DNA of 64,000 nucleotides from Hornefia butyriciproducens (GTDB lineage Bacteria > Bacillota > Clostridia > Peptostreptococcales > Anaerovoracaceae): assembly GCF_009695915.1 (NCBI RefSeq), contig NZ_VUMZ01000004.1:62001-126000 (forward strand), written 5' to 3'. Shown piece after piece: positions 47,200-64,000 of this stretch; position 1 is the stretch's first letter, and every line of letters begins with the position of its first letter. A model generated the notes under the pieces. That model was not told where the DNA came from and made no database searches. It saw only the letters and a program-made list of their open reading frames with translations. The position numbers were made by a program, and so were the translations under genes.

Positions 47200-47409
47200 T
47201 TACTGAATCGACAGAACCTTGTAATCCTTCGCCTCTACCGCCTGCTTCAGCACATCATCCGACACGTCTCCGCTCAGTGTGACCACAGCTTTGTTCGCCT
47301 CGTGGCTCACTTCAGCGCTCTCTACGCCCTGCACCTCTTCCAGCGCCTTCTTCACGGTCGCTTCGCAGTGTCCGCACATCATTCCTTCGATATTCATTGT
47401 CTTTTCCAT
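47200..47409 (-). CDS. copZ: Possible internal-start CopZ copper chaperone
   Basis: Within copA and in the same frame, CAGGAGG stands eight bases before ATG at 47409. Initiation there would give a 69-residue protein ([15 protein letters not shown]...) that is a complete CopZ, with CxxC at 12-15. In many Bacillota copZ is a separate gene directly after copA; here the stop between them is absent, so both a fusion and free CopZ may be made. Confidence 0.55.
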
Positions 47410-49854
47410 TTCTGTAACCTCCTGATTTACATTTTCCTTTCGCTTTATCTTTTTATCCTTTGAAGCGTCATGCAGTCTGAAAAGATTCAGGCGCAGCGCG
47501 TTCATACACACGCAGAAGCTGGACAAGCTCATGGCCGCGGCTCCCAGCATGGGATTCATGGACCATCCCGTCAGGTGGACATAGGCGCCTGCCGCCACCG
47601 GAATAAGGATGGCGTTATAGAAGAACGCCCAGAACAGATTCTCATGTATATTCTTCACCGTCTGACGGCTCAGCCGCAGCGCCGCCGGAACATCGCTGAG
47701 TCTGCTGTTCATCAGCACCACATCCGCCGCGTCGATGGCAACGTCCGTTCCCGCACCGATGGCGATGCCGGTATCTGCCCGTGTCAGAGCAGGCGCATCA
47801 TTGATTCCGTCCCCGACCATGGCGACCTTGCCCTGCTTTTTCAGTCTGCGTATTACGGCCTCCTTGCCGGTCGGCAGAACGCCCGCGATAACCTCGTCCA
47901 CGCCGGCCTGCCTTCCGATCGCCCGGGCGGTACGCTCGTTGTCCCCCGTCAGCATGACCACATGGATGCCCATATTTCTGAGCTGCCGGATCGCCTCCGG
48001 GCTGTCCTCCTTGATGGTATCCGCCACCGCGATCATTCCGGCGAACCGGTCGTCCTCTGCGAAATACAGACAGGTTTTTCCTTCCTCTGCAAGCTTCTCT
48101 GCCCTGTCAAGGATCGCCTGAGGCACCGGGCATTTCTTTTGTACAAAATCAAGGTTTCCCCCGGTCAGAGACAAGCCGCTCCGCATCCCATGCAGCCCGT
48201 GACCGCTGACGGCCTGAAAAGCCGTAACATCGTCGGGTACGACTCCCTGCGATTCCGCCCGGGACAGCACTGCCCGCGCCAGCGGATGCTCACTCTTTCC
48301 TTCCAGCGCCGCGGCCAGGGACAGCAGTTCAGTTTCTGTGAAGCCTTCTGCAGGAACCATATCCGTCACCTGCGGCTCGCCTCTGGTAATCGTTCCGGTC
48401 TTATCCAGCGCGACGATCTGCGTGCGGCCGGTTTCCTCCAGCGACTCCGCAGTTTTAAACAAAATCCCGTTCTTCGCGCCCAGGCCGTTTCCGACCATGA
48501 TTGCGACCGGCGTCGCGAGCCCCAGTGCGCAGGGACAGCTGATTACCAGAACAGCAATTCCGCGGGCCAGCGCATATCCCGGATCCTGCCCGACGAGGAG
48601 CCAGATAATCATCGTAACGATTGCAATTCCGATGACAGCGGGAACGAAAATCCCCGAAACCTTATCTGCGATCTTGGCAATCGGAGCCTTTGTCGCCGCA
48701 GCATCGCTGACCATCTGAATAATCTGCGCCAGGGTAGTATCCTCGCCTACGCGGGTCGCTTCGGCCCGGATGAATCCGCCCTGATTCACCGTCGCTGCTG
48801 AAACCATATCGCCTTTTCCTTTGTCCACCGGAATACTCTCTCCGGTCAGCGCCGATTCGTCAACCGCGGTCTCACCCTCCAGAATCACTCCATCCACCGG
48901 AATGTTCTCCCCCGGACGGACCACGAACTGATCTCCCGCACGGACCGAATCAACGGCAACCTCCGTCTCCACGCCGTCCCGCAGAATCGTTGCGGTTTTC
49001 GGTGCAAGTTTCATCAGGCCTTTCAGCGCGTCAGTCGTTCTTCCCTTCGACATCGCCTCCAGCATCTTTCCGATTGTGATCAGCGTTACAATCATCGCGG
49101 CTGCTTCGAAATAAAAGTCGTGCATATCCGCCATCACTGCCGCGCTGTCTCCGGCAACCTGATCCCCTGTCATGCGGAACAGAACGAATACGCTCCATCC
49201 GAAGGAAACCGCCGACCCCATCGCCACAAGAGTGTCCATGTTCGGCGCGCCGTGCATCAGGCTTTTGAAGCCGCTGACAAAGAATTTTTTGTTGATCATC
49301 ATAACGACGACTGCCAGGATCATCTCCAGAAGTCCCATGGCCACATGATTCCCCTGAAAGAACGCCGGCACCGGCCAGCTCCACATCATATGTCCCATGG
49401 AGAAATACATCAGCACCAGCAGAAATCCCACGGACGCGATCAGGCGGCGCTTCAGGACCGGCGTTTCGTGATCCGCAAGAGCCTCCTCCTCCGCCGCGTA
49501 ACGGTCATAACCGGTTCCGGCCGCCGATGCTGACGCGGCCACTGGTGATGACGCGTCCGTTGATGCTGACGCGCCCACTGATACGGGCGATCCCGGAGTT
49601 CCTCCGACAACTTCTTTTGCCGCGCCCTGCACCGAAACGCCCCCTGCATTTCCCCGCGTCTTCGGCGAAGCGCCGTATCCCGCGTCCTGCACTGCTTTGA
49701 TGATTTCCGCATCCGATGCGGTGCCTTCAACCCCCATGGAATTGGTCAGAAGACTGACTGAGCATCCGGTAACTCCCGGTACTCTGTTCACCGCCTTCTC
49801 CACCCGGCTCTGACAGGCCGCGCAGCTCATTCCCGTAACAATATACTGCTTCAA
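47200..49854 (-). CDS. copA: Copper-exporting P1B-type ATPase with fused C-terminal CopZ domain
   Basis: 884 residues. N-terminal HMA domain with GMSCAAC (8-14), then an Ala/Ser/Thr/Pro-rich linker (about 66-118), eight membrane helices, the copper site SCPCALG, phosphorylation motif DKTGT, hinge GDGIND. After the last helices a second HMA domain (about 816-884, GMMCGHC) corresponds to a whole CopZ chaperone. Exports Cu(I). csoR lies 28 bp upstream in the same operon. The C-terminal HMA is unusual because most CopA have them only at the N-terminus. Confidence 0.95.
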
Positions 49855-49882
49855 AATCTCGCCTCCCTTGCGTTGTATCTCA

Positions 49883-50383
49883 TTATTTCATCAGTTTCTG
49901 AAGTGTCTTCAGAAGCTCGTCAATCGTTTCGTCATTTCCCTCACGAATATCGTCAGCCACACAGGTGCGGATGTGATTCGCCATCAGTACCCGGTTGAAA
50001 CTGTTCAGCGCCGAGCCGGCCGCCGCGCTCTGGGTCAGGATGTCAGGACAGTAGGCGCCCTCCTCCACCATGCGTTTCAGCCCGCGAATCTGGCCTTCAA
50101 TGCGGCTCAGCCGATTGATCAGATCTTTATATTCCTCCGGAGTCCGCTCCTTGGTTCGATGCTGGCAGCAGCAGTTCGGTGCTGATCCTGCCGCCATATC
50201 CGGCGGCGTTGGCAGAGTCGTCGGCTCGGCTGACGGCGAGACCGCGGGCACTGTTGACGGCGAGACTGCGGACGAAGTTCCGGACTTTGACGAAGCACCG
50301 GATGCTGACGAGGCTGTGGTCGCTGTTGGCGGCGAGGCCGCCGTTTCCGCTGTTTCTATTTCTGATTTAGTACGGTTCTCCAT
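49883..50383 (-). CDS. csoR: Copper-sensing repressor CsoR with low-complexity N-terminal extension
   Basis: 166 residues. The DUF156 core (about 78-166) contains [25 protein letters not shown] and MANHIRTCV, giving the Cys-His-Cys copper site. CsoR is normally 85-120 residues; here about 50 residues rich in Ala, Ser, Thr and Pro (13-64) and a CCCQH segment precede it. The linker resembles in composition the one in CopA of the same operon. Start 50383 (MENRTKSE) follows GGGG. Binds the two operators upstream and derepresses when Cu(I) is high. Confidence 0.92.
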
Positions 50384-50479
50384 GATTTTCCCCTTCCTTC
50401 TTCCACCGGCACTCCGCAGACTGTGCTCCACCTGCCGCGGCACATACATGCCGCATCGTTTTTCTTTTGTTGTCCCTAC

Positions 50480-50540
50480 ATACCCCATCGGGGTATCTGC
50501 CAGACACAGCTATTATATACCCACCTGGGGTATCAGTCAA
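50480..50540 (-). promoter_or_regulatory. csoR-copA promoter with two CsoR operators
   Basis: Minus strand TTGACT (50535-50540), 17 bp, TATAAT (50512-50517). Operator 1, ATACCCC-atc-GGGGTAT (50480-50496), is perfect and downstream of -10; operator 2, ATACCC-ac..-GGGGTAT (50517-50533), fills the spacer. Both match the CsoR consensus. Confidence 0.92.
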
Positions 50541-50634: not shown

Positions 50635-51657
50635 ATGAAAAAAATCAGTCTTGGAAAAACAGGAATCACTTCCGACAAAAACGGATTCGGTGCGCTGCCC
50701 ATCCAGCGCATTTCCTTCGAAGATGCCGAGCGCATCATTCTCAGGGCCATCGAAGGCGGCATCACCTATTTCGACACCGCCCGTTTTTACACAGACAGTG
50801 AGCAGAAGCTGGGACGCGCACTCGCGGGCCGGCGGCACGAAGTCACTATCGCCACAAAGACAATGTGCAAAACCACCGAAGAATTCTGGACTCAGCTTAA
50901 TCAGTCGCTGACCGATCTGCGCACCGACTACATCGATATCTACCAGTTCCATAACCCGGACTTCTGTCCCAGGCCAGGCGACGGCACCGGACTTTATGAG
51001 GCCATGCTGGATGCGAAAAAGCAGGGGAAAATACTCCATATCGGCATCACCAATCATCGTCTTCCGGTAGCCGAGGAAGCTGTTGACTCCGGACTCTATG
51101 AAACACTACAGTTCCCGTTTTCTTATCTGGCGGCCCCACAGGATCTCGCGCTGGCCGAAAAATGCGCACAGAGCGGAATGGGATTCATCGCAATGAAAGC
51201 TCTTAGCGGCGGTCTGATTAACCGCGCCGACGTTGCTTATGCATTCTGCGATCAATACGATTATGTACTGCCTATCTGGGGAATCCAGAAAATGTCCGAG
51301 CTGGAAGAATTCCTGGAATGCAGAAAGAATCCACCCGCCTACGACGAGGAAATGCAGGCTTTCGTCGCTTCCGAGCGCGCCCAGCTCTCCGGTGATTTCT
51401 GTCGCGGATGCGGTTATTGTATGCCATGTCCCGCAGGTATAAAAATCAACGATTGTGCCCGGATGTCACTGCTGATACGCCGTGCGCCTGTCGAGATTTA
51501 TATGAACAAAGAATACCAGGCTGAGATGCAGAAGATAAAAGGATGCTTGCACTGTGACAGTTGCCGGCAAAAATGTCCCTACGGCCTGGACACACCGGCA
51601 CTGCTGGAGAAAAACCTCCTGGATTACGAAGAAGTTCTGGCCGGAAAAGCTTTGTAA
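50635..51657 (+). CDS. Aldo/keto reductase with C-terminal Fe-S cysteines
   Basis: 340 residues. Barrel motifs TYFDTARFYTDSEQKLG and LHIGITNH; the C-terminal part has CRGCGYCMPCPAGI (near 264) and CLHCDSCRQKCP (near 305), two ferredoxin-like cluster sites. Related in layout to the 18978 gene but clearly diverged. AAGGAGG precedes ATG. Single gene on its strand; substrate unknown. Confidence 0.9.
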   Translation: MKKISLGKTGITSDKNGFGALPIQRISFEDAERIILRAIEGGITYFDTARFYTDSEQKLGRALAGRRHEVTIATKTMCKTTEEFWTQLNQSLTDLRTDYIDIYQFHNPDFCPRPGDGTGLYEAMLDAKKQGKILHIGITNHRLPVAEEAVDSGLYETLQFPFSYLAAPQDLALAEKCAQSGMGFIAMKALSGGLINRADVAYAFCDQYDYVLPIWGIQKMSELEEFLECRKNPPAYDEEMQAFVASERAQLSGDFCRGCGYCMPCPAGIKINDCARMSLLIRRAPVEIYMNKEYQAEMQKIKGCLHCDSCRQKCPYGLDTPALLEKNLLDYEEVLAGKAL

Positions 51658-52255: not shown

Positions 52256-52258
52256 CTA
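52169..52258 (-). repeat. Degenerate 22-23 bp repeats, about four copies
   Basis: Units on the minus strand follow CTGCG(G/A)CCGA(G/A)TCC(G/A)-like pattern, each ending before the next CTGCG. They start at the stop codon of the DUF4430 gene and run into the 3' untranslated region. Confidence 0.6.
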
Positions 52259-53314
52259 TTTAACCTTTACGGTTTTGGTTGCGGAGAATTTGCCGAAATA
52301 GTTTTTGCCGCCGACTGTCTTGTACGCGCGGACTTTGACGGAATACTTCTTTCCTTTCTTCAGGTTCTTAATGGTCTTTTTGGTCAGCTTCGTGTTGACC
52401 TTGAACCACTTACTTGAGCCCTTCTTCTTATATTTGATCTGATACTTCGCGCCTTTGATCTTTTTTACGGAAACTGTGGCTTTCTTTGTTCCTGCCTTAA
52501 GCCCTGTAATCTTCGCGGTCGCGATTTTCGGGGCTTTGACAGTGACAGTCGACGCCTCACCGAAGATTTTGCCTGTAATATTTGCGCCGGTCCAGTCCTT
52601 AATGTTGACGGTTCCTGTCGGCGCAATTGTATAGGTACCCGGCTTTGTCAGAGTAAATGTCGCCGCACCGTTCTTGTAGGATGTCTCGACGGCGGTCAGT
52701 TTTCCGGTACTCTTATCGACTGTATTCAGCGTTACGGCGGCCGGCTTGATGCTGCTGTTGCTTACGGCGTCATATACTGAAACCTTTGCCGTGATTTTCT
52801 CGCCTGCCGTCGCGGTGTACGCGGTCTTTGTCAGATAGCTATACTGATCCGAGTAATTTTTGTCGCTGTAGGCTCCTGCGAAGAGCCTGTCTCCATCCTT
52901 CACCGCGATTTCAGAAACGCCCATCTTATTATATTCGCCGTTTGTAAAATAGTATCCGACGATATCATGCCCGAACTGCTTTGTGACCAGCGAACCGTAG
53001 TCGGTTCTGGAGAGCCCGAGATACTCCGTCACCTTGTCTTCTCCGTATGTCTGAATGGTTGCCGCGACAAGGACGTCAGCGTAGGACACACCGTCCGCCT
53101 CCACGGTTTTCAGATCCGGGAAATACTTCTCCGCCAGATCGCCGGTGGCCGTAACCTTCTCATTTACCATATCATACTGATCCGGAATGCCGGCACTGAA
53201 CGTAACCGTCGCCTTCTGCGACGCCGTACCCTCCGCGAACGCCATTCCCGGCATAAACGCCATTACCATTGTCAGGGCGAGCACCGCGATCAGTGCTCTG
53301 GAAAACTTCTTCAT
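52256..53314 (-). CDS. Secreted DUF4430 (transcobalamin C-terminal-like) protein
   Basis: 352 residues. Signal peptide 1-28 (ALIAVLALTMVMAFMPGMAFA). Residues about 34-160 fit DUF4430: an early beta strand, YADVLVAATIQTYG, then YYFTNGEYNKMGVSEIAVKDGDRLFAGAYS, matching the NG..A....V.DGD pattern. DUF4430 resembles the C-terminal domain of intrinsic factor and transcobalamin. An Ig-like unit (about 165-265) and an Fn3-like C-terminus follow. ATG 53314 has AGGAGG seven bases away. Second gene behind a cobalamin riboswitch, hence a corrinoid-binding role is proposed. Match made by eye; no anchor motif seen. Confidence 0.7.
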   Translation of the reverse strand: MKKFSRALIAVLALTMVMAFMPGMAFAEGTASQKATVTFSAGIPDQYDMVNEKVTATGDLAEKYFPDLKTVEADGVSYADVLVAATIQTYGEDKVTEYLGLSRTDYGSLVTKQFGHDIVGYYFTNGEYNKMGVSEIAVKDGDRLFAGAYSDKNYSDQYSYLTKTAYTATAGEKITAKVSVYDAVSNSSIKPAAVTLNTVDKSTGKLTAVETSYKNGAATFTLTKPGTYTIAPTGTVNIKDWTGANITGKIFGEASTVTVKAPKIATAKITGLKAGTKKATVSVKKIKGAKYQIKYKKKGSSKWFKVNTKLTKKTIKNLKKGKKYSVKVRAYKTVGGKNYFGKFSATKTVKVK

Positions 53315-53335
53315 CACTTAACCTCCTCTGATAAT

Positions 53336-55105
53336 CTACTTTACCTTCTTATATACGATACCGGAATATGCTCCGTATATCTTCTTACCGCTTACTGTGC
53401 GGTATGCGCGAACCTTGTAATAATATGTCTTGCCTTTTTTGAGCTTCTGGTTGGTGTATTTCACGGAAGATCCCTTCTTCAGGGTCGCGGCGGTTTTATA
53501 CTTTCCGCTTTTACTGGTGGCTCGAACTACCTGATAACCGCTGGCTTTAGACACCTTTTTCCAGCTCACGGTAATTTTCCTGCTTCCCGCTCTGGCTTTC
53601 ACTGAACCCGGCGCCGGTGGCAGAGCCTTCACCTTGAGTGTCGACGAATTGTCCGTCACCGAACCGTCCATCAGCTCCGCGCGAATCCGGAGGTAATAGG
53701 TTTTCCCTGTTTTCAGACTTCCGACGGCCGCCGATGTGGCGCTGTTCTTTGCGGTTTTCACCTTCCTGTAAGTCTTTTTGTCTGTACTCTGGTAAATAAC
53801 AAAGGATCTTACATTCTCCCGCGGCGACCAGGACAGCGTGACCGACTCGGTCGTCTTCGGCGCGGATTTCAGACCGGTCACTGCCGAAGTGCTCTTGCCG
53901 CTGCCGACGGCCATAATGTCGCCGGCGTCATTTTTGTAGTACAAATTCCCGTCCGCGTCGCTCACGACCGGCGAAATGCAATACTGCTGCAGGGGCGGTA
54001 TAAAGGTTTCGCCCTGAGCCGAGACTCTCAGATCGTCAGTCAGTTCTATGTAATAAATCCCACCCGGCGGCCGGTTGTAGGTGGAGTAGATGCAGATTTT
54101 TCCGCTGTTTCCTGTGGAGATCAGCATTTCGCCCTGTACGTTTGCGGGAGCCTTCACGGTTGTCGCAATCTCCATCTTATCCTTGTCAATCGCGTAGATA
54201 TTCCCGCCGTTGCTGCCTATGTAGAGGTTATCACCGCTGATGAGCGGCGTGTTGACAGAGGGAGCGATTTTGACCTTTCCGGCTTCTGTCAGACTCGTTC
54301 CTGAAACCTTGTACTTTGTCAGATAGCCGACCCCTGTGCTGTCCATGGACATGTATGTGGCAGTCTTGGATGCAACATAGACACTGTTGCCGTCAGACAC
54401 CGGGGTGGAACGGATGGTCATGCCATCTCCGGCATTCAGGACCTTGGTAACAGTTGTTCCTGTTTTCGACGCGATGTAGAGATTCCCGCCGTCGCTTCCG
54501 AAGACCACTGAATCGCCCACCTCACAGGCGCCGTCCCAGTAATACCCTTCTTTGTCATACTGTCCCTGCTCCCAGGCAAGGGAAAGGTCTGAAAGCTTCA
54601 GCGCAAAGTATGTTCCGCCCTCAGCACTGTCGTTCCAGGTTCCGCCGTAGATCCGGTCTCCGATGATCTTCAACGGTCCTTCGTTCTGTCCTTGAAATTT
54701 CTTGCTCGTTGCGAGCTTCTTCAGATCGCTGCTGTACTTCACCACGGAGGAGCCGTTCACAAAGACATATACGTTGTGGCTGCTGTCGACGGCGACCGGC
54801 GATGTACCAAAGCCCGCCGTACCGGGCAGCGTGCTGCCGGCCAGCACCTTGCCGGTGTCTTTGTCCAGCTTGTACAGCTTCTTTCCCGCGACGAAGTATA
54901 CATAATTTCCGTCCACTGCCGGCGGTGTCGGCGCGTTTGTGAAGTCCATCGGCTTACTGGACGTGATGAAGCGCCACTTCAGATGTGTATTCCAGGTTCC
55001 GACCGGCGTCGCAGCCGTTGTAACCGCCGCAAACGCACTGGCCGGCATCAGCATCGCAACTGCGATGACAAAGGTCAGAAGACCGATTGACATTTTTTTC
55101 TTCAT
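53336..55105 (-). CDS. Secreted PQQ-type beta-propeller protein with two Fn3 modules
   Basis: 589 residues. Signal peptide 1-27 (IGLLTFVIAVAMLMPASAFA). Propeller-like blades (about 40-390) of the pattern VYVFVNGSSVVKYSSDL, LYIGSNGGNIYAIDKDK, VVFGSDGGNLYIASK resemble PQQ-binding-like repeats. Two Fn3 modules follow (about 395-490, 495-589), the last ending KKIYGAYSGIVYKKVK. GAGGAG precedes ATG. First gene directly after a cobalamin riboswitch and terminator; the DUF4430 gene lies 21 bp downstream. Probably binds or positions a corrinoid at the cell surface; this is inference from regulation. Confidence 0.78.
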   Translation of the reverse strand: MKKKMSIGLLTFVIAVAMLMPASAFAAVTTAATPVGTWNTHLKWRFITSSKPMDFTNAPTPPAVDGNYVYFVAGKKLYKLDKDTGKVLAGSTLPGTAGFGTSPVAVDSSHNVYVFVNGSSVVKYSSDLKKLATSKKFQGQNEGPLKIIGDRIYGGTWNDSAEGGTYFALKLSDLSLAWEQGQYDKEGYYWDGACEVGDSVVFGSDGGNLYIASKTGTTVTKVLNAGDGMTIRSTPVSDGNSVYVASKTATYMSMDSTGVGYLTKYKVSGTSLTEAGKVKIAPSVNTPLISGDNLYIGSNGGNIYAIDKDKMEIATTVKAPANVQGEMLISTGNSGKICIYSTYNRPPGGIYYIELTDDLRVSAQGETFIPPLQQYCISPVVSDADGNLYYKNDAGDIMAVGSGKSTSAVTGLKSAPKTTESVTLSWSPRENVRSFVIYQSTDKKTYRKVKTAKNSATSAAVGSLKTGKTYYLRIRAELMDGSVTDNSSTLKVKALPPAPGSVKARAGSRKITVSWKKVSKASGYQVVRATSKSGKYKTAATLKKGSSVKYTNQKLKKGKTYYYKVRAYRTVSGKKIYGAYSGIVYKKVK

Positions 55106-55126
55106 TTACTCACTCCTCATTGAAAC

Positions 55127-55154
55127 AACAAAAAACTGCGGCTTGCGCCGCAGT
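55127..55154 (-). terminator. Terminator of the cobalamin riboswitch expression platform
   Basis: Perfect ACTGCGGC-ttgc-GCCGCAGT followed by six T on the minus strand, 30 bp ahead of the propeller gene start. Between it and the aptamer ATTCTGC...GCAGAAT can pair and may act as alternative structure. Confidence 0.88.
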
Positions 55155-55189
55155 CCGTTTTCACTGCTGTGCATTCTGCATAGGAGTAC

Positions 55190-55385
55190 ACCGCTCCCGC
55201 AGAATTCCATTCATGCAGGTTTCCTGACTCGTGCTCTTCATCCTGACCCCGTCTTCCCGGAAATACCAGTGACTGCCCGTGCGGGCGGGGGCCGGACTCC
55301 CACTTACAGTGGCGGTACCGCGCAGGTCTCTCACCTGCTTCCCTCTCAGCGCCGCGTTCCACGCGGCGAACATGAACTGACTTCT
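55190..55385 (-). ncRNA. Cobalamin (B12) riboswitch
   Basis: Minus-strand core elements in order: AGGGAAGCAGGTGAGAG, GCGGTACCGCCACTGTAAG (55303-55320), AGTCACTGG, GGGAAGACGGGG, and the B12 box GAGTCAGGAAACCTGC (55215-55230). All match the cobalamin aptamer in order and spacing. A strong GCCGCGT hairpin (55350-55369) lies at the 5' side. Binding of cobalamin should favour the downstream terminator and shut off the two secreted proteins. Confidence 0.96.
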
Positions 55386-55391
55386 TTTACT

Positions 55392-55420
55392 ATCGTACCC
55401 GTCTTCACAGAAAAAGTCAA
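55392..55420 (-). promoter_or_regulatory. Promoter of the cobalamin-riboswitch operon
   Basis: TTGACT, 17-bp spacer, TACGAT on the minus strand; the transcript would start near 55385, at the aptamer's 5' end. Confidence 0.7.
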
Positions 55421-55463: not shown

Positions 55464-55485
55464 ATAGATGAAAGCAGGTGAAAAA

Positions 55486-56055
55486 ATGTCCCTACGTGAA
55501 GCGTTAAAGAAAAAAAATATGTCCATATACCGGCTGTCCAAAATAAGCGGACTCCCTTATACAACTGTACATGATATTTACAATAACAAAGCACAGCTGA
55601 AAAAATGTAGCGCCGAAACAGTTTATAAGCTCGCTCGTACGCTAGGGGTTTCCATGGAAGAACTTCTGGCGCCCTCCTTCTTTAAACGCGGCAGTTTTGA
55701 AAACTTCAAAAGCGCTGTCTGCCATCGTGTCAGGGAACTGGGAGATATTGATTTTATTATCAACACACTGGAAAGCGGGGATATCCGCACTTATTATAAC
55801 CTGCAGTGGTATCCTGAGAGCCTTTATCTTCTTGGTATGCTGGATTATATAAGCCGGGAAAATGACATACCGCCGGACAGCGAATATGATGACCTCCGTC
55901 AATGCCGTCTGGAAAAACCAATTTATCCGTCCAGCCTCCTGGCTCTGTCCGCAGCAGCCGGGAACAGCAGCGCTTTGGAAGAAGCGGTGAAAACAGCAAT
56001 TCCAGAGTTTATTCGATTTAATATTGTAGAAAATGAGGTTCGAGATATCATCTGA
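55486..56055 (+). CDS. XRE-family helix-turn-helix protein (putative antitoxin)
   Basis: 189 residues. N-terminal XRE helix-turn-helix (MSIYRLSKISGLPYTTVHDIYNNKAQLKKCSAETVYKLA region, seen in parts) in about residues 5-60; the rest, with acidic and aromatic segments, I do not recognise. AGGTG precedes ATG. It overlaps the downstream nucleotidyltransferase gene by 23 bp, a layout typical of toxin-antitoxin pairs. Lower GC than neighbours suggests transfer. Confidence 0.75.
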   Translation: MSLREALKKKNMSIYRLSKISGLPYTTVHDIYNNKAQLKKCSAETVYKLARTLGVSMEELLAPSFFKRGSFENFKSAVCHRVRELGDIDFIINTLESGDIRTYYNLQWYPESLYLLGMLDYISRENDIPPDSEYDDLRQCRLEKPIYPSSLLALSAAAGNSSALEEAVKTAIPEFIRFNIVENEVRDII

Positions 56056-56839
56056 TCTGCGATTTGAATTTACCAAAGAGAATATTGACATTTATCTGAA
56101 AGAGCTTGGAAAGGAATATCGCAGGCAGCGTGGTAAGGGTATGCCTGCCGAACTGATATTGATCGGTGGAGCCTCAGTTCTGATCAATTACGGTTTCCGG
56201 AACATGACGACAGATGTCGACGCTGTGATTCAGGCAGCTTCCGGCATGAAGGATGCAATCAATGCGGTCAGAGATCGATATGGGCTTCCCAACCATTGGC
56301 TGAATGATGATTTCAAGAATACGAGTTCATACACGCCAAAGTTAATCGAGTTTTCCGTCTACTACAAAACCTTCTCCAATGTTCTCTCCATCCGCACCAT
56401 AGCATCGGAGTATCTGATTGCAATGAAATTGCGTTCCGGGAGACAATATAAAAGCGATTTATCCGATGTACTGGGCATCCTGGCAGAGCATGAAAAAGAA
56501 GGAACACCGCTCAGCATGAAACAGATACGAAAAGCTGTAACTGACCTGTACGGTGATTGGAATTCTCTTCCGAACGTATCTCAGGTATTCATAGAAAATG
56601 TCATGGAGAACTCCGGATTTGAACAACTGTATGAGCAGATCACACGAGAGGAGCAGGAAACTAAAGAATTGCTGATTCAGCTTGAAGAAAACTATCCGGG
56701 TATAATCACCAGAGCCAATGTGAACGGCATCGCTGAAAATCTTCAAGAAAAGGCTGACAGAGCTTCAATTCTTGCTAGGCTCAGACAAAAGAAATCTGTC
56801 GATACGAAAATAACTGACGAAAAGAAATCAGGCGGCTGA
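56033..56839 (+). CDS. Nucleotidyltransferase-fold protein (DUF6036/AbiEii-like)
   Basis: 268 residues. The nucleotidyltransferase core is seen as LILIGGASVLINYG (42-54) and TTDVDAVI (59-66), giving the G-G/S and D-x-D catalytic signature; IASEYLIAMKLRSGRQYKSDLSDV is the conserved second half seen in AbiEii and DUF6036 proteins. Lys/Glu-rich C-terminus. Start ATG lies inside the end of the XRE gene and has no strong ribosome site, so it is probably translated by coupling. Toxin or anti-phage function is inferred from the pairing. Confidence 0.78.
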   Translation: MRFEISSDLRFEFTKENIDIYLKELGKEYRRQRGKGMPAELILIGGASVLINYGFRNMTTDVDAVIQAASGMKDAINAVRDRYGLPNHWLNDDFKNTSSYTPKLIEFSVYYKTFSNVLSIRTIASEYLIAMKLRSGRQYKSDLSDVLGILAEHEKEGTPLSMKQIRKAVTDLYGDWNSLPNVSQVFIENVMENSGFEQLYEQITREEQETKELLIQLEENYPGIITRANVNGIAENLQEKADRASILARLRQKKSVDTKITDEKKSGG

Positions 56840-61005: not shown

Positions 61006-61845
61006 TCATTCATCCTGTTTTTTGCTGTACTCCGCAATTTCACCGCATGTCGCGAACCAGACGTCCTTCTCTGACTGCATATGATCCAGCAGCTCCTCCA
61101 GAAGGCCCGTTCTCCCCGGCGCGCCGATCATGGCAGGATCCAGCTGAAGCACATAGCAAAGTCCGTACTCAGCCGCCCCGTCGAATTCATCGATCCAGTT
61201 GTCCAGAACCCCCGTGTAATTCGCGATGCGTCCCTGACCCGCAGGGAACGCCGGATGATAGTTGAAGGCGAAATACGGCAGATCATAGTTGACCCAGTGA
61301 ATGGGAATCTCTGTCATGGTTTCTCCGTTGCCGAGATCAATCTCACAGGGGCGGTCGTCGCAGCTGAGGTTGCTGGAATACGCGAGACCGAGCTCTTTTG
61401 CCGCCTGCAGGGTTTCCAGCGTCAGTTCTCCCTGAGGAGTACGGAACCCCCGCGGCGTTGTCCCGCAGACCCTTTCGACAGTTTCTATGCTCTTTTTCAG
61501 GGAATGCTTCTGCTCTTCCTTTGTGTACAAAGCCATATTCTCATCGCGGCTGCCCATGACGCCGATCTCATGCCCCCGCTCTGCAATGCTCCGCAGGGTG
61601 TCCGCATAATGCTCCGCCACCCATCCGGGCACAAAGGCTGTCGCGCGCAGCTTCCGTTCCTCCAGAATGTCCAGGATTCTGTCGATGCCCCGATTCATTC
61701 CATACTGGCCGAGGGACAGCGTCTTAGGCTTGTCCGCACAGTCCGGATCCAGATCCAGCCAGAACAGCTCCGCATTCAGATTCAACGTGACTGCCGCAGC
61801 ACAGCGATTTCCCTGCGGCCATACCGGTCTTTCCAGTTCCATCAT
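61006..61845 (-). CDS. Polysaccharide deacetylase-fold paralogue lacking metal ligands
   Basis: 279 residues, clearly homologous to the upstream deacetylase. However, the metal Asp region reads LNLNAELFW instead of FDVDGD, and the His motif reads GHEIGVMGSRDE instead of GHEIGHHGYAHE, so Asp and both His ligands are missing; the arginine loop GFRTPQGE is kept. Probably a non-catalytic partner or an enzyme of changed chemistry. AAGGAGG precedes ATG, which overlaps the preceding stop as ATGA. Third gene of the AGCS operon. Confidence 0.85.
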   Translation of the reverse strand: MMELERPVWPQGNRCAAAVTLNLNAELFWLDLDPDCADKPKTLSLGQYGMNRGIDRILDILEERKLRATAFVPGWVAEHYADTLRSIAERGHEIGVMGSRDENMALYTKEEQKHSLKKSIETVERVCGTTPRGFRTPQGELTLETLQAAKELGLAYSSNLSCDDRPCEIDLGNGETMTEIPIHWVNYDLPYFAFNYHPAFPAGQGRIANYTGVLDNWIDEFDGAAEYGLCYVLQLDPAMIGAPGRTGLLEELLDHMQSEKDVWFATCGEIAEYSKKQDE

Positions 61846-62705
61846 TCTGCCTCCTTCCCAATCGGATACTGCCGGCGGTACCAGGCAGCGATTTCGCTTC
61901 CGGTCGCTACCCAGACGTCGTCTCTTGCCGTAATGTTACGGAGCAGATGATCCAGAATCCGGATGCGTCCCGGTGATCCCAGAACCTGTGGATGCCCCAT
62001 GAAGGAAATTGCAAGTCCGTAACGGTAATGCCCCTCGAATTCTCTGAGGAAATTGTCCTCTACGTTCCGGTAGCAGGAGATCCTGTCCTGTCCGCAGGGT
62101 TCTGCCGGATACATGTTATAGGCCATTGCCACATAGTCATCCAGCTCCCATTTGGTGGGAATTTCAATGAAGTCGGTCGGCTCTCCGTCGATAACGGTCC
62201 GATACGGCCGGTCGTCACCGCGCATTGAGCTGGAATAGCGGAAGCCTCTCTCATACAGAAGCTTCGGCGTTTCAACCGCCCAGTCGCCGGAGGGTGTCCG
62301 GAAACCGGTGATTTCTTTACCGATCAGTTTCCTGAAGATGTTCTGTGATTTCTCGATGATCTCAATCTGCTCCTCCGTGCTCCGTCCCGCGAAGCGCTCA
62401 TGGGCGTATCCGTGGTGTCCGATCTCATGTCCCTGCGCGTCGATCCGCCGGATCAGATCGGGATATCTTTCTGCGGTGAGTCCCGGCACAAAGAATGTCG
62501 CGCGCACGCCGTATTCCTCCAGCTTCGCCATAATGCGATCCACACACCGGTTCGGTCCGTACCGGCCCACACTCAGCGACCGCAGGTACCTGTCGCCGTT
62601 GGGCAGGCCTTTGTTGCCGTTTTCCCAGGTCGTGTCCCCGTCCACATCGAACGTGAACATGACCGCACACCGTTTTCCGTCCGGCCATTTTATGCTGTTG
62701 TCCAT
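61842..62705 (-). CDS. Polysaccharide deacetylase / PuuE-like amidohydrolase
   Basis: 287 residues with NodB-fold motifs: TFDVDGDTTW (metal Asp), GHEIGHHGYAHE (two His) and GFRTPSGDW. No signal peptide, so it is cytoplasmic, which fits the PuuE/allantoinase-like subgroup rather than cell-wall deacetylases. Start 62705 (MDNSIKWPDGKRC) follows GAGGG and lies two bases after the AGCS symporter stop. The symporter probably imports an amide or N-acyl compound that this enzyme hydrolyses. Confidence 0.85.
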   Translation of the reverse strand: MDNSIKWPDGKRCAVMFTFDVDGDTTWENGNKGLPNGDRYLRSLSVGRYGPNRCVDRIMAKLEEYGVRATFFVPGLTAERYPDLIRRIDAQGHEIGHHGYAHERFAGRSTEEQIEIIEKSQNIFRKLIGKEITGFRTPSGDWAVETPKLLYERGFRYSSSMRGDDRPYRTVIDGEPTDFIEIPTKWELDDYVAMAYNMYPAEPCGQDRISCYRNVEDNFLREFEGHYRYGLAISFMGHPQVLGSPGRIRILDHLLRNITARDDVWVATGSEIAAWYRRQYPIGKEAE

Positions 62706-62707
62706 GC

Positions 62708-64000
62708 TTATACCCTCTTTCTTCGTTCTTCTGTCCATATATCGGTATCCAATTCCAGTCCAATGTCCGATGCCACGAATCTGCGGCCGTCGTTTTCGAC
62801 ATAATCCCTCAGAGCGCGAAGCACATACTTTCCTCCGAACAGAATAATCGGTGCATTGCAGAACACCAGCGCAATATTGATCAGATCCGACACATACCAG
62901 ATATTGTCAAGTTCCAGTCCGGCGAGTACGCAGAGTGTCCCGAACGGAACAAATACAAGCGCACCGAGAATCCGGATCGTATTTTTGCACGCTTTTCCCT
63001 TGGAAATCCTGGTTCCTGCAATTGATGCAAAGGAAACGAGTCCCAGCAAAGAAGTGAATGCGAACAATGCGTAGCATATACAGATTATCAGAACGATTAT
63101 CGCATCCGCACCGGTTCCGGGGGCCAGAGCCTTGATTGAATCCATAAATACGTCAATTTTCGATTGTGACAGAGTTGACCAGTCAACCTTCGGGTCGTCC
63201 CAGATATGCGCTGTGCATACAACAAAAGCACTGATTGTACAGATGACGATCGTGTCAACGAACACACCGATTGCCTGTACAAAACCCTGATCACAGGGAT
63301 GATCCTGTTCCGATACCGCCGCCGACATTGTAATTGTTCCCTGGCCCGCTTCGTTGGAAAGCAGTCCTCTCCGGATTCCCTGCGACAGCGCTACGCCAAA
63401 GGCTCCTCCGAATACGGATTCGGGCTTGAAGGCGCCGACAAAGACACTTTCAATAAATGCAGGGAAAAACCGAATGTTGATCACCATCAGAAAGAGGACG
63501 ATCGCAATGTAGATCACTGCCATCACCGGCACCATCTTGTCAGTTACCTTTGTGACCCGACGGATTCCACCGAACACGGCAAAGGCTGTTCCTACAATAA
63601 TGACAACGGCCAGAACATAATACAGTGTCGAGGTTCTCTCCGCCACCGTTCCAGTAACGGCTCCGATTGCTCCACCCGTTGCTGTAAATACATGGAATGT
63701 CTGAATCGGAATACTCAGCATGGCGAAGATAATATAAAATACCGTAAGCGCGATGCCGACTGCCTTTTTGTTACCGCAAAGCTTCTGTCCGTAGTACGGC
63801 AGACCTCCAACGTATTCATCGCCGTCGCGCTCCTTAAAGATCTGCGCCAGTGTAGATTCGACAAACGAACTGGCCATTCCGAACAAAGCCGAAACCCACA
63901 TCCACAGCAGCGCTCCCGGTCCGCCAAGAGAAATCGCGCCCGTTACCCCAATGATGTTTCCGGGACCGACGCGCATACCCATGCTGAGCATAAACGCTGC
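62708..64000 (-). CDS. AGCS-family sodium/amino acid symporter, 5' end beyond window
   Basis: At least 427 residues seen, entering the window around the first conserved motif MRVGPGNIIGVTGAIS, so the N-terminal helices lie outside. The second AGCS signature GLLSNEAGQGTITMSAAVS is intact. About ten membrane helices remain. Heads an operon with two deacetylase-fold proteins. Only moderately similar to the AGCS protein at 31170. Confidence 0.92.
   Translation of the reverse strand, partial: AAFMLSMGMRVGPGNIIGVTGAISLGGPGALLWMWVSALFGMASSFVESTLAQIFKERDGDEYVGGLPYYGQKLCGNKKAVGIALTVFYIIFAMLSIPIQTFHVFTATGGAIGAVTGTVAERTSTLYYVLAVVIIVGTAFAVFGGIRRVTKVTDKMVPVMAVIYIAIVLFLMVINIRFFPAFIESVFVGAFKPESVFGGAFGVALSQGIRRGLLSNEAGQGTITMSAAVSEQDHPCDQGFVQAIGVFVDTIVICTISAFVVCTAHIWDDPKVDWSTLSQSKIDVFMDSIKALAPGTGADAIIVLIICICYALFAFTSLLGLVSFASIAGTRISKGKACKNTIRILGALVFVPFGTLCVLAGLELDNIWYVSDLINIALVFCNAPIILFGGKYVLRALRDYVENDGRRFVASDIGLELDTDIWTEERRKRV

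Follow-up and report, generated by a model that had tools for sequence, protein, structure and literature searches.

The stretch analysed here, a window of 64,000 nucleotides from the genome of Hornefia butyriciproducens (2.44 Mb in 28 contigs), carries on its minus strand a cobalamin riboswitch followed by two genes for exported proteins, called gene A and gene B below. In the direction of transcription the locus is composed of a promoter-like site, the aptamer, an antiterminator and terminator, gene A and gene B, with a gap of 18 bases between the two genes. Gene A (53336..55105, on the minus strand like all features of the unit) encodes 589 residues with a signal peptide, a PQQ/BamB-type beta-propeller and two C-terminal Fn3 domains. 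Gene B (52256..53317) encodes 353 residues, or 352 if counted from the ATG at 53314, with a signal peptide, a transcobalamin-like N-terminal domain, an Ig-like domain and an Fn3 domain. The next sizeable gene downstream of the pair (50635-51657) lies on the opposite strand, and the A-B pair is therefore not followed by any gene for transport or biosynthesis, just as an earlier sequence-only reading of this DNA had stated.

The riboswitch and its expression platform

The Rfam scan matched the cobalamin riboswitch RF00174 at 55197..55390 over the whole model (positions 1-189 of 189), with 101.8 bits against a cut-off of 31.5 and an E-value of 2.6e-24. This was the sole Rfam match above the gathering score in the window, and it bears out the complete B12 aptamer of the sequence-only reading. 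Directly before the aptamer lies a promoter-like site (55392..55420; TTGACT, 17 bases, TACGAT; 9/12 matches), which is not significant alone, the pattern scan having returned 3 sites versus 2.9 in shuffles. Behind the aptamer, and ahead of the two exported proteins as the same reading had proposed, an intrinsic terminator was recognized by pattern and conservation at 55129..55154, with an 8-bp stem (55135-55154), a GCAA loop and a T run. The 5' arm of the terminator shares five bases with a putative antiterminator hairpin of 5 bp (55150..55167).

Five leaders were aligned, those of the window and of the genomes G007, G013, G056 and G009 (our own handles, with L for loci and C for contigs). The terminator was paired in all five (40/40 cells) with three pairs changed on both sides, and its covariation score was reached by 6 of 500 shuffles, a modest control with five leaders; the antiterminator was paired in 25/25 cells with two pairs changed on both sides, a pairing level that 26 of 500 shuffles reached under the same modest control. 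The case for the terminator rests on this conservation, because the terminator scan of the region gave 4 sites versus 4.5 in shuffles, no excess, and the single-sequence fold of 55085-55200 was unremarkable (z -1.52; 17 of 200 shuffles were as good). In G007 the T run of the terminator is weaker, and the strict pattern did not pick this terminator up. From the five leaders we predict that the two hairpins compete as the expression platform. The layout and the general mechanism of such riboswitches suggest that the genes are turned off by the ligand: at low intracellular cobamide the antiterminator would form and both genes would be read, at high cobamide the bound aptamer would let the terminator form, and the two genes would be transcribed together as one unit that cobalamin shuts off. 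That the aptamer is only a remnant and B12 control of the pair has been lost is highly improbable; the weakened T run in G007 and a second propeller cluster of the window genome that has no riboswitch would fit such a loss, but the aptamer is full-length and high-scoring, and the competing hairpins have been maintained via paired changes.

The two exported proteins

The propeller of A covers about residues 30-403 (53897..55018), and its two Fn3 domains cover about residues 407-480 and 499-589 (53339..53887). Pfam matched PQQ_2 (4.2e-11) and fn3 (6.1e-13) in A, which confirmed the beta-propeller and Fn3 modules proposed earlier. In the fold comparison, propellers of the BamB, YxaL and Rv3035 types were the best matches, with 14 to 18 percent identity over the fold, and A is probably a BamB-type, eight-bladed propeller, the blades being taken from the best matches and not counted. 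The regulation and gene context of these known propellers differ from those of A. BtuG was not among the best 50 fold matches of A, an absence that excludes nothing. A signal-peptide-like stretch was recognized by eye at the N terminus of both A and B, in agreement with the export predicted for the two proteins. Neither protein has an LPxTG motif or an N-terminal cysteine, and Pfam and our own profiles found an alpha/alpha toroid in neither. The terminal Fn3 modules lie at 53339-53611 (A) and 52259-52534 (B).

For B, the ATG at 53314, preceded by GAGGAGG, is the likelier start. The protein is composed of a divergent DUF4430/SLBB (transcobalamin beta-domain-like) domain at about residues 35-150 (52868..53215), an Ig-like middle domain at about residues 156-260 (52538..52852) and the C-terminal Fn3 domain (52259..52534). 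The middle domain is DUF4198-like in four of the nine family members, the best with 24.3 bits and thus below the cut-off of 34. DUF4430 (PF14478) is presumably the Pfam name for the transcobalamin-like clade of the SLBB beta-grasp superfamily. In the accessible part of PMC4350170 the name DUF4430 is given to the C-terminal domain of transcobalamin-like proteins from fish, which fits this equation.

The AlphaFold model of B has a mean predicted local distance difference test (pLDDT) score of 88.5. In the N-terminal domain DSSP assigned strands at residues 35-44 and 47-58, helices at 79-91 and 93-99, a hairpin of strands 100-105 and 108-114, and further strands at 120-125 and 144-149. This order of two strands, helix, beta-hairpin and strands is that of a beta-grasp with a hairpin after the helix, as judged by strand order and not by superposition; this arrangement is how the accessible sections of Burroughs et al. 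(2007, PMC1796856) define the transcobalamin-like clade. An iterated profile built from B residues 31-175 reached proteins that match PF14478 at 1e-13 to 1e-20. One of the nine B-family members, the orthologue at the syntenic locus of G013, a genome regarded as that of Aminicella lysinilytica DSM 28287, matched PF14478 itself at profile positions 5-67 of 72 with E 0.0015 and 19.4 bits, and a genome search at the same place gave 21.3 bits (E 7.5e-4), still below the cut-off of 23.8. The hhalign comparison of the B family with DUF4430 yielded 75 percent over 29 columns and, with trimmed columns, 89 percent over 33. All of the best 50 fold matches of B fell within residues 156-353, so the fold comparison is not informative on the N-terminal domain; in the PDB sequence search with the B alignment, which gave 113 matches, all of the 60 listed hit the C-terminal Ig/Fn3 region, and the DUF4430 alignment found nothing below E 0.5 in the PDB. 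B is very probably a divergent relative of the DUF4430/transcobalamin-like clade that stands outside formal Pfam membership. The DUF4430 claim made from the sequence alone is thus kept as distant homology and fold, and given up as a family match.

Conservation and genomic context

A and B are adjacent behind the riboswitch in the window genome, G007, G013 and G056. Between the window and G007 both proteins are 94 percent identical, with nonsynonymous over synonymous divergence (dN/dS) of 0.028/0.170 for A and 0.029/0.142 for B, and both are under purifying selection. The flanks of the pair in G013, named by eye, match those of the window, with fumarase-like, malic-enzyme-like and argininosuccinate-lyase-like genes on one side and an aldo-keto reductase gene and a 452-residue gene on the other, and the locus has therefore been inherited. 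The operon behind the riboswitch is longer in G009 and G074, where toroid, MoxR-like, DUF58-like and transglutaminase-like genes accompany those for B-type, DUF4430 and propeller proteins. Eight genomes have both gene types in one locus (G000, G007, G013, G056, G009, G074, G002 and G001), and the riboswitch heads the locus in six of them. No riboswitch was found in G002, nor on the 5.7-kb contig of G001 that carries a propeller gene and a cut-off B-type start. Toroid homologues were found in 7 of the 14 genomes searched.

Twenty propeller loci, two of them from the window genome or its twin, were picked by similarity to A or B, and their counts are therefore not those of a random sample. A transcobalamin-like domain was recognized by our own profile in 18 of the 20, and the remaining two, L092 and L124, matched in a one-pass profile search; CbiQ and CbiO occur together in 6/20, and a riboswitch lies upstream of the propeller operon in 9/20. 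In Eubacterium callanderi (L126) a single protein of 1337 residues contains both DUF4430 (5.3e-8) and PQQ_2 (1.7e-10), and its gene adjoins ECF-S, DUF4430 and CbiQ genes. No riboswitch was found in the 17 kb fetched for L126, and a toroid in this locus was recognized by our own profiles and not by Pfam. The L126 genome (G149) has thirteen cobalamin riboswitches above the cut-off. DUF4430 and propeller are also fused in L098 according to Pfam, and the transcobalamin-like domain and propeller are joined in one protein in L094 and L125 according to our own profiles. The second propeller cluster of the window genome (L101 2-11838; C23:204000-222000) encodes a 1470-residue propeller protein, a DUF4430 protein and two large Fn3 proteins.

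The window genome has six cobalamin riboswitches above the cut-off and one below it. Assigned by position, the six lead the A-B pair, a DUF4430 gene, a BtuF-type ATP-binding cassette (ABC) operon, a CbiK-Fn3 gene, a MoxR-like operon and a cbi operon, and the seventh leads a DUF4430 protein of 1610 residues. The ABC operon encodes a 974-residue secreted protein, a BtuF-type binding protein (Peripla_BP_2), a permease and an ATPase; the cbi operon is one for anaerobic B12 synthesis, with CbiD, CbiG, CbiJ, CbiB, CbiA and others. A CbiQ/CbiO/ECF-S operon lies one gene away from the riboswitch-led DUF4430 gene. The 974-residue protein (L014 9140-12064, C25), encoded by the first gene of its operon, has no Pfam match at E up to 0.05, and our own profile found relatives in other riboswitch-led loci (L110, L113, L114 and L115). 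The product of the CbiK-Fn3 gene (L015 2171-4339, C5) is secreted and combines a complete cobalt chelatase domain of the CbiK type with an Fn3 at its C terminus. Its relatives occur in L115, L116, L108 and L112; in L108 and L112 the CbiK-type proteins stand ahead of genes that look haem-type by eye, and L108 also has a NEAT-domain protein. The operon led by the riboswitch in L016 (8028-12346, C23) contains MoxR-like and DUF58-like genes, named by eye, and a transglutaminase gene, and in the relatives L086, L089 and L100 such genes sit inside DUF4430/propeller operons.

The association was also counted over the 30 PF14478 matches of the genomes covered by both searches, taking over-cut-off aptamers on the same strand. 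A riboswitch lies within 13 kb upstream of 9/30 matches versus 0.35 expected, and within 5 kb upstream of 5/30 versus 0.14 expected; the 13 kb limit was set after some distances were known, and neighbouring matches are not independent. Eight of the 30 come from four genomes in which no riboswitch was found (G001, G002, G010 and G011). Omitting these eight and allowing below-cut-off aptamers, the count is 12/22 versus 0.41 expected, 3 of the 12 resting on below-cut-off aptamers. Two of the nine rows belong to G093, where the riboswitch leads an adenosyltransferase-like gene (named by eye) and not the DUF4430 genes; the count is 7/27 once G093 is omitted, and 6/21 if the near-twin G007 is left out as well. 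A riboswitch ahead of a DUF4430 gene is commoner than chance would give. The arrangement extends to another family of the same order, where in G095 a riboswitch-led DUF4430 gene precedes an ECF-S-like gene.

These loci also bear on the possibility that A and B are surface scaffold or adhesion proteins merely co-regulated with B12 uptake, for example in wall remodelling under limitation. Fn3 domains and propellers are widespread in surface proteins, 55 of the 65 proteins with the Fn3 module end in it (in loci partly fetched by this module), the module may serve surface retention, and a riboswitch also leads the MoxR-like/DUF58-like/transglutaminase operon. Against this, propeller and DUF4430 domains are recurrently linked, by fusion or by operon, with CbiQ, CbiO and ECF-S, and we regard a purely structural role as quite unlikely.

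Proposed function of the pair

We consider it likely that the A-B pair is made when cobamide is short, is exported and helps to catch a corrinoid-type ligand. The sequence-only reading had already proposed corrinoid capture; what stands of it is the riboswitch with its terminator, the export signals, the distant transcobalamin homology of B and the context, in which both domain types are tied to B12 riboswitches and to CbiQ/CbiO/ECF-S genes, whereas corrinoid binding by A or B, a complex of the two and a scaffold role for the propeller are predictions. After export, A and B would probably be retained at the surface via their C-terminal Fn3 modules. The diverged transcobalamin-type domain of B would most likely bind a corrinoid or a related tetrapyrrole, and A would most likely act with B, either as a second binding face or as a platform holding B near an importer. 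The ligand would then be handed to an importer encoded elsewhere, for which the BtuF-type ABC operon behind its riboswitch and the CbiQ/CbiO/ECF-S operon near the DUF4430 gene are the candidates.

Several results weigh against this proposal. Window B gave no PF14478 match at E up to 1, nor in a scan at E up to 10, in which the HMMER filters drop most matches above 0.1, and the NCBIfam scan of B for DUF4430 was negative too. One-pass profiles link the two families weakly, at 0.02 to 0.65 for relatives and 0.52 for window B, compared with 0.18 for a probably unrelated open reading frame and first decoys at 0.73 and 2.8 in the two directions. The best propeller matches of A are of general BamB/PQQ types. 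Over-cut-off riboswitches are lacking within 13 kb of 21/30 PF14478 matches; nine of the 20 propeller loci, some of them on short contigs, have no riboswitch, and in two more (L092 and L093) it leads another gene. The L101 cluster of the window genome has no detectable B12 riboswitch, and a sensitive search (E up to 0.5) found none in L101, L096, L099 or L088. Such absences are soft in fragmented genomes because at most 79 candidates were scored per genome in the riboswitch search of relatives. The toroid alignments found no toroid partner in the window genome, and an animal-type two-jaw site therefore cannot be assumed here. The genome also has a cbi operon, whereas bacteria with transcobalamin-like proteins usually lack key B12 synthesis enzymes according to the accessible sections of PMC1796856, and therefore this bacterium may be no plain scavenger.

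With this operon, and with secreted CbiK and NEAT-type proteins in such regulons, precursors and cobalt stay in play. Instead of finished cobalamin, the ligand of A and B could be cobalt or an incomplete precursor, tetrapyrrole or corrinoid, taken in to feed the cell's own B12 synthesis. The cbi operon is led by a riboswitch, the secreted CbiK-Fn3 protein belongs to the same regulon, in relatives haem-type genes (the haem names being given by eye) are preceded by CbiK-type lipoproteins and a NEAT-domain protein, and CbiQ is annotated as cobalt transport. On the other side, the animal transcobalamin domain contacts the whole cobalamin, as stated in the accessible sections of PMC1796856, and a riboswitch-led BtuF-type ABC operon exists. 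We judge a precursor or cobalt role unlikely and prefer the capture of a corrinoid-type ligand.

The same sections of PMC1796856 predict a role of secreted transcobalamin-like proteins in scavenging B12 or B12 precursors, note CbiO/CbiQ neighbours and one propeller fusion, and propose that the animal transcobalamin-like proteins came from low-GC Gram-positives; the word riboswitch is absent from that paper. Shared with this clade are export from a Gram-positive, the beta-grasp with a hairpin after the helix in B, Ig-like and propeller domains and CbiO/CbiQ genes among the partners, and a predicted role in B12 scavenging. Unlike its members, window B is too diverged for a Pfam match, the pair has no transporter, and it comes with a B12 riboswitch and a cbi operon. 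The fold type of the animal transcobalamin and intrinsic factor beta-domain is alike, but A and B lack the alpha/alpha toroid.

In Bacteroidetes, BtuG (PMC6143338) and the BtuG1-type propeller-BtuH fusions (PMC8941943) are likewise secreted propellers of a B12-riboswitch regulon, and in the BtuG1-type fusions a propeller is joined to a second ligand domain. However, BtuG is a seven-bladed surface lipoprotein beside BtuB in Gram-negatives, whereas A is BamB/PQQ-like, has no lipobox cysteine and has no BtuB-type gene in its unit. A bolder version of corrinoid capture, in which the propeller and the diverged transcobalamin-type domain form a single corrinoid site on the Gram-positive surface and the propeller replaces the toroid as second jaw, is speculative and rather doubtful. 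If true, the pair would have arrived by convergence at an arrangement like that of the Bacteroidetes propeller-BtuH proteins, even in a bacterium with a B12 synthesis operon.

Cobamide acquisition is less well known in Firmicutes than in Bacteroidetes, according to the accessible part of PMC8941943. In Clostridium ljungdahlii, genes for high-threonine-content proteins lie beside adenosylcobamide riboswitches (accessible part of PMC5640608), and these may be related proteins. DUF4465, a beta-jellyroll, binds B12 according to the accessible part of PMC13398666. Searches of open-licence PMC papers turned up none that describes the A-B pair in its title or the opening of its abstract. The kind of protein was predicted in 2007; the riboswitch-controlled, transporter-less pair of a propeller and B is new. 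The pair is small and has an orthologue in the named strain Aminicella lysinilytica DSM 28287, which brings the 2007 prediction within reach of a test on two soluble proteins.

Other features of the window

Between the riboswitch and the fumarase-like gene, on the plus strand (55468-56839), a helix-turn-helix (HTH) gene overlaps a DUF6036 nucleotidyltransferase gene. The two resemble a toxin-antitoxin or defence pair and have no counterpart at the equivalent place in L085, the A. lysinilytica locus. On the minus strand, a CsoR-like regulator gene adjoins a copper-type P-ATPase gene (47200-50488), and two paralogous neighbours are polysaccharide deacetylase-like (61006-62738), all of these names being given by eye.

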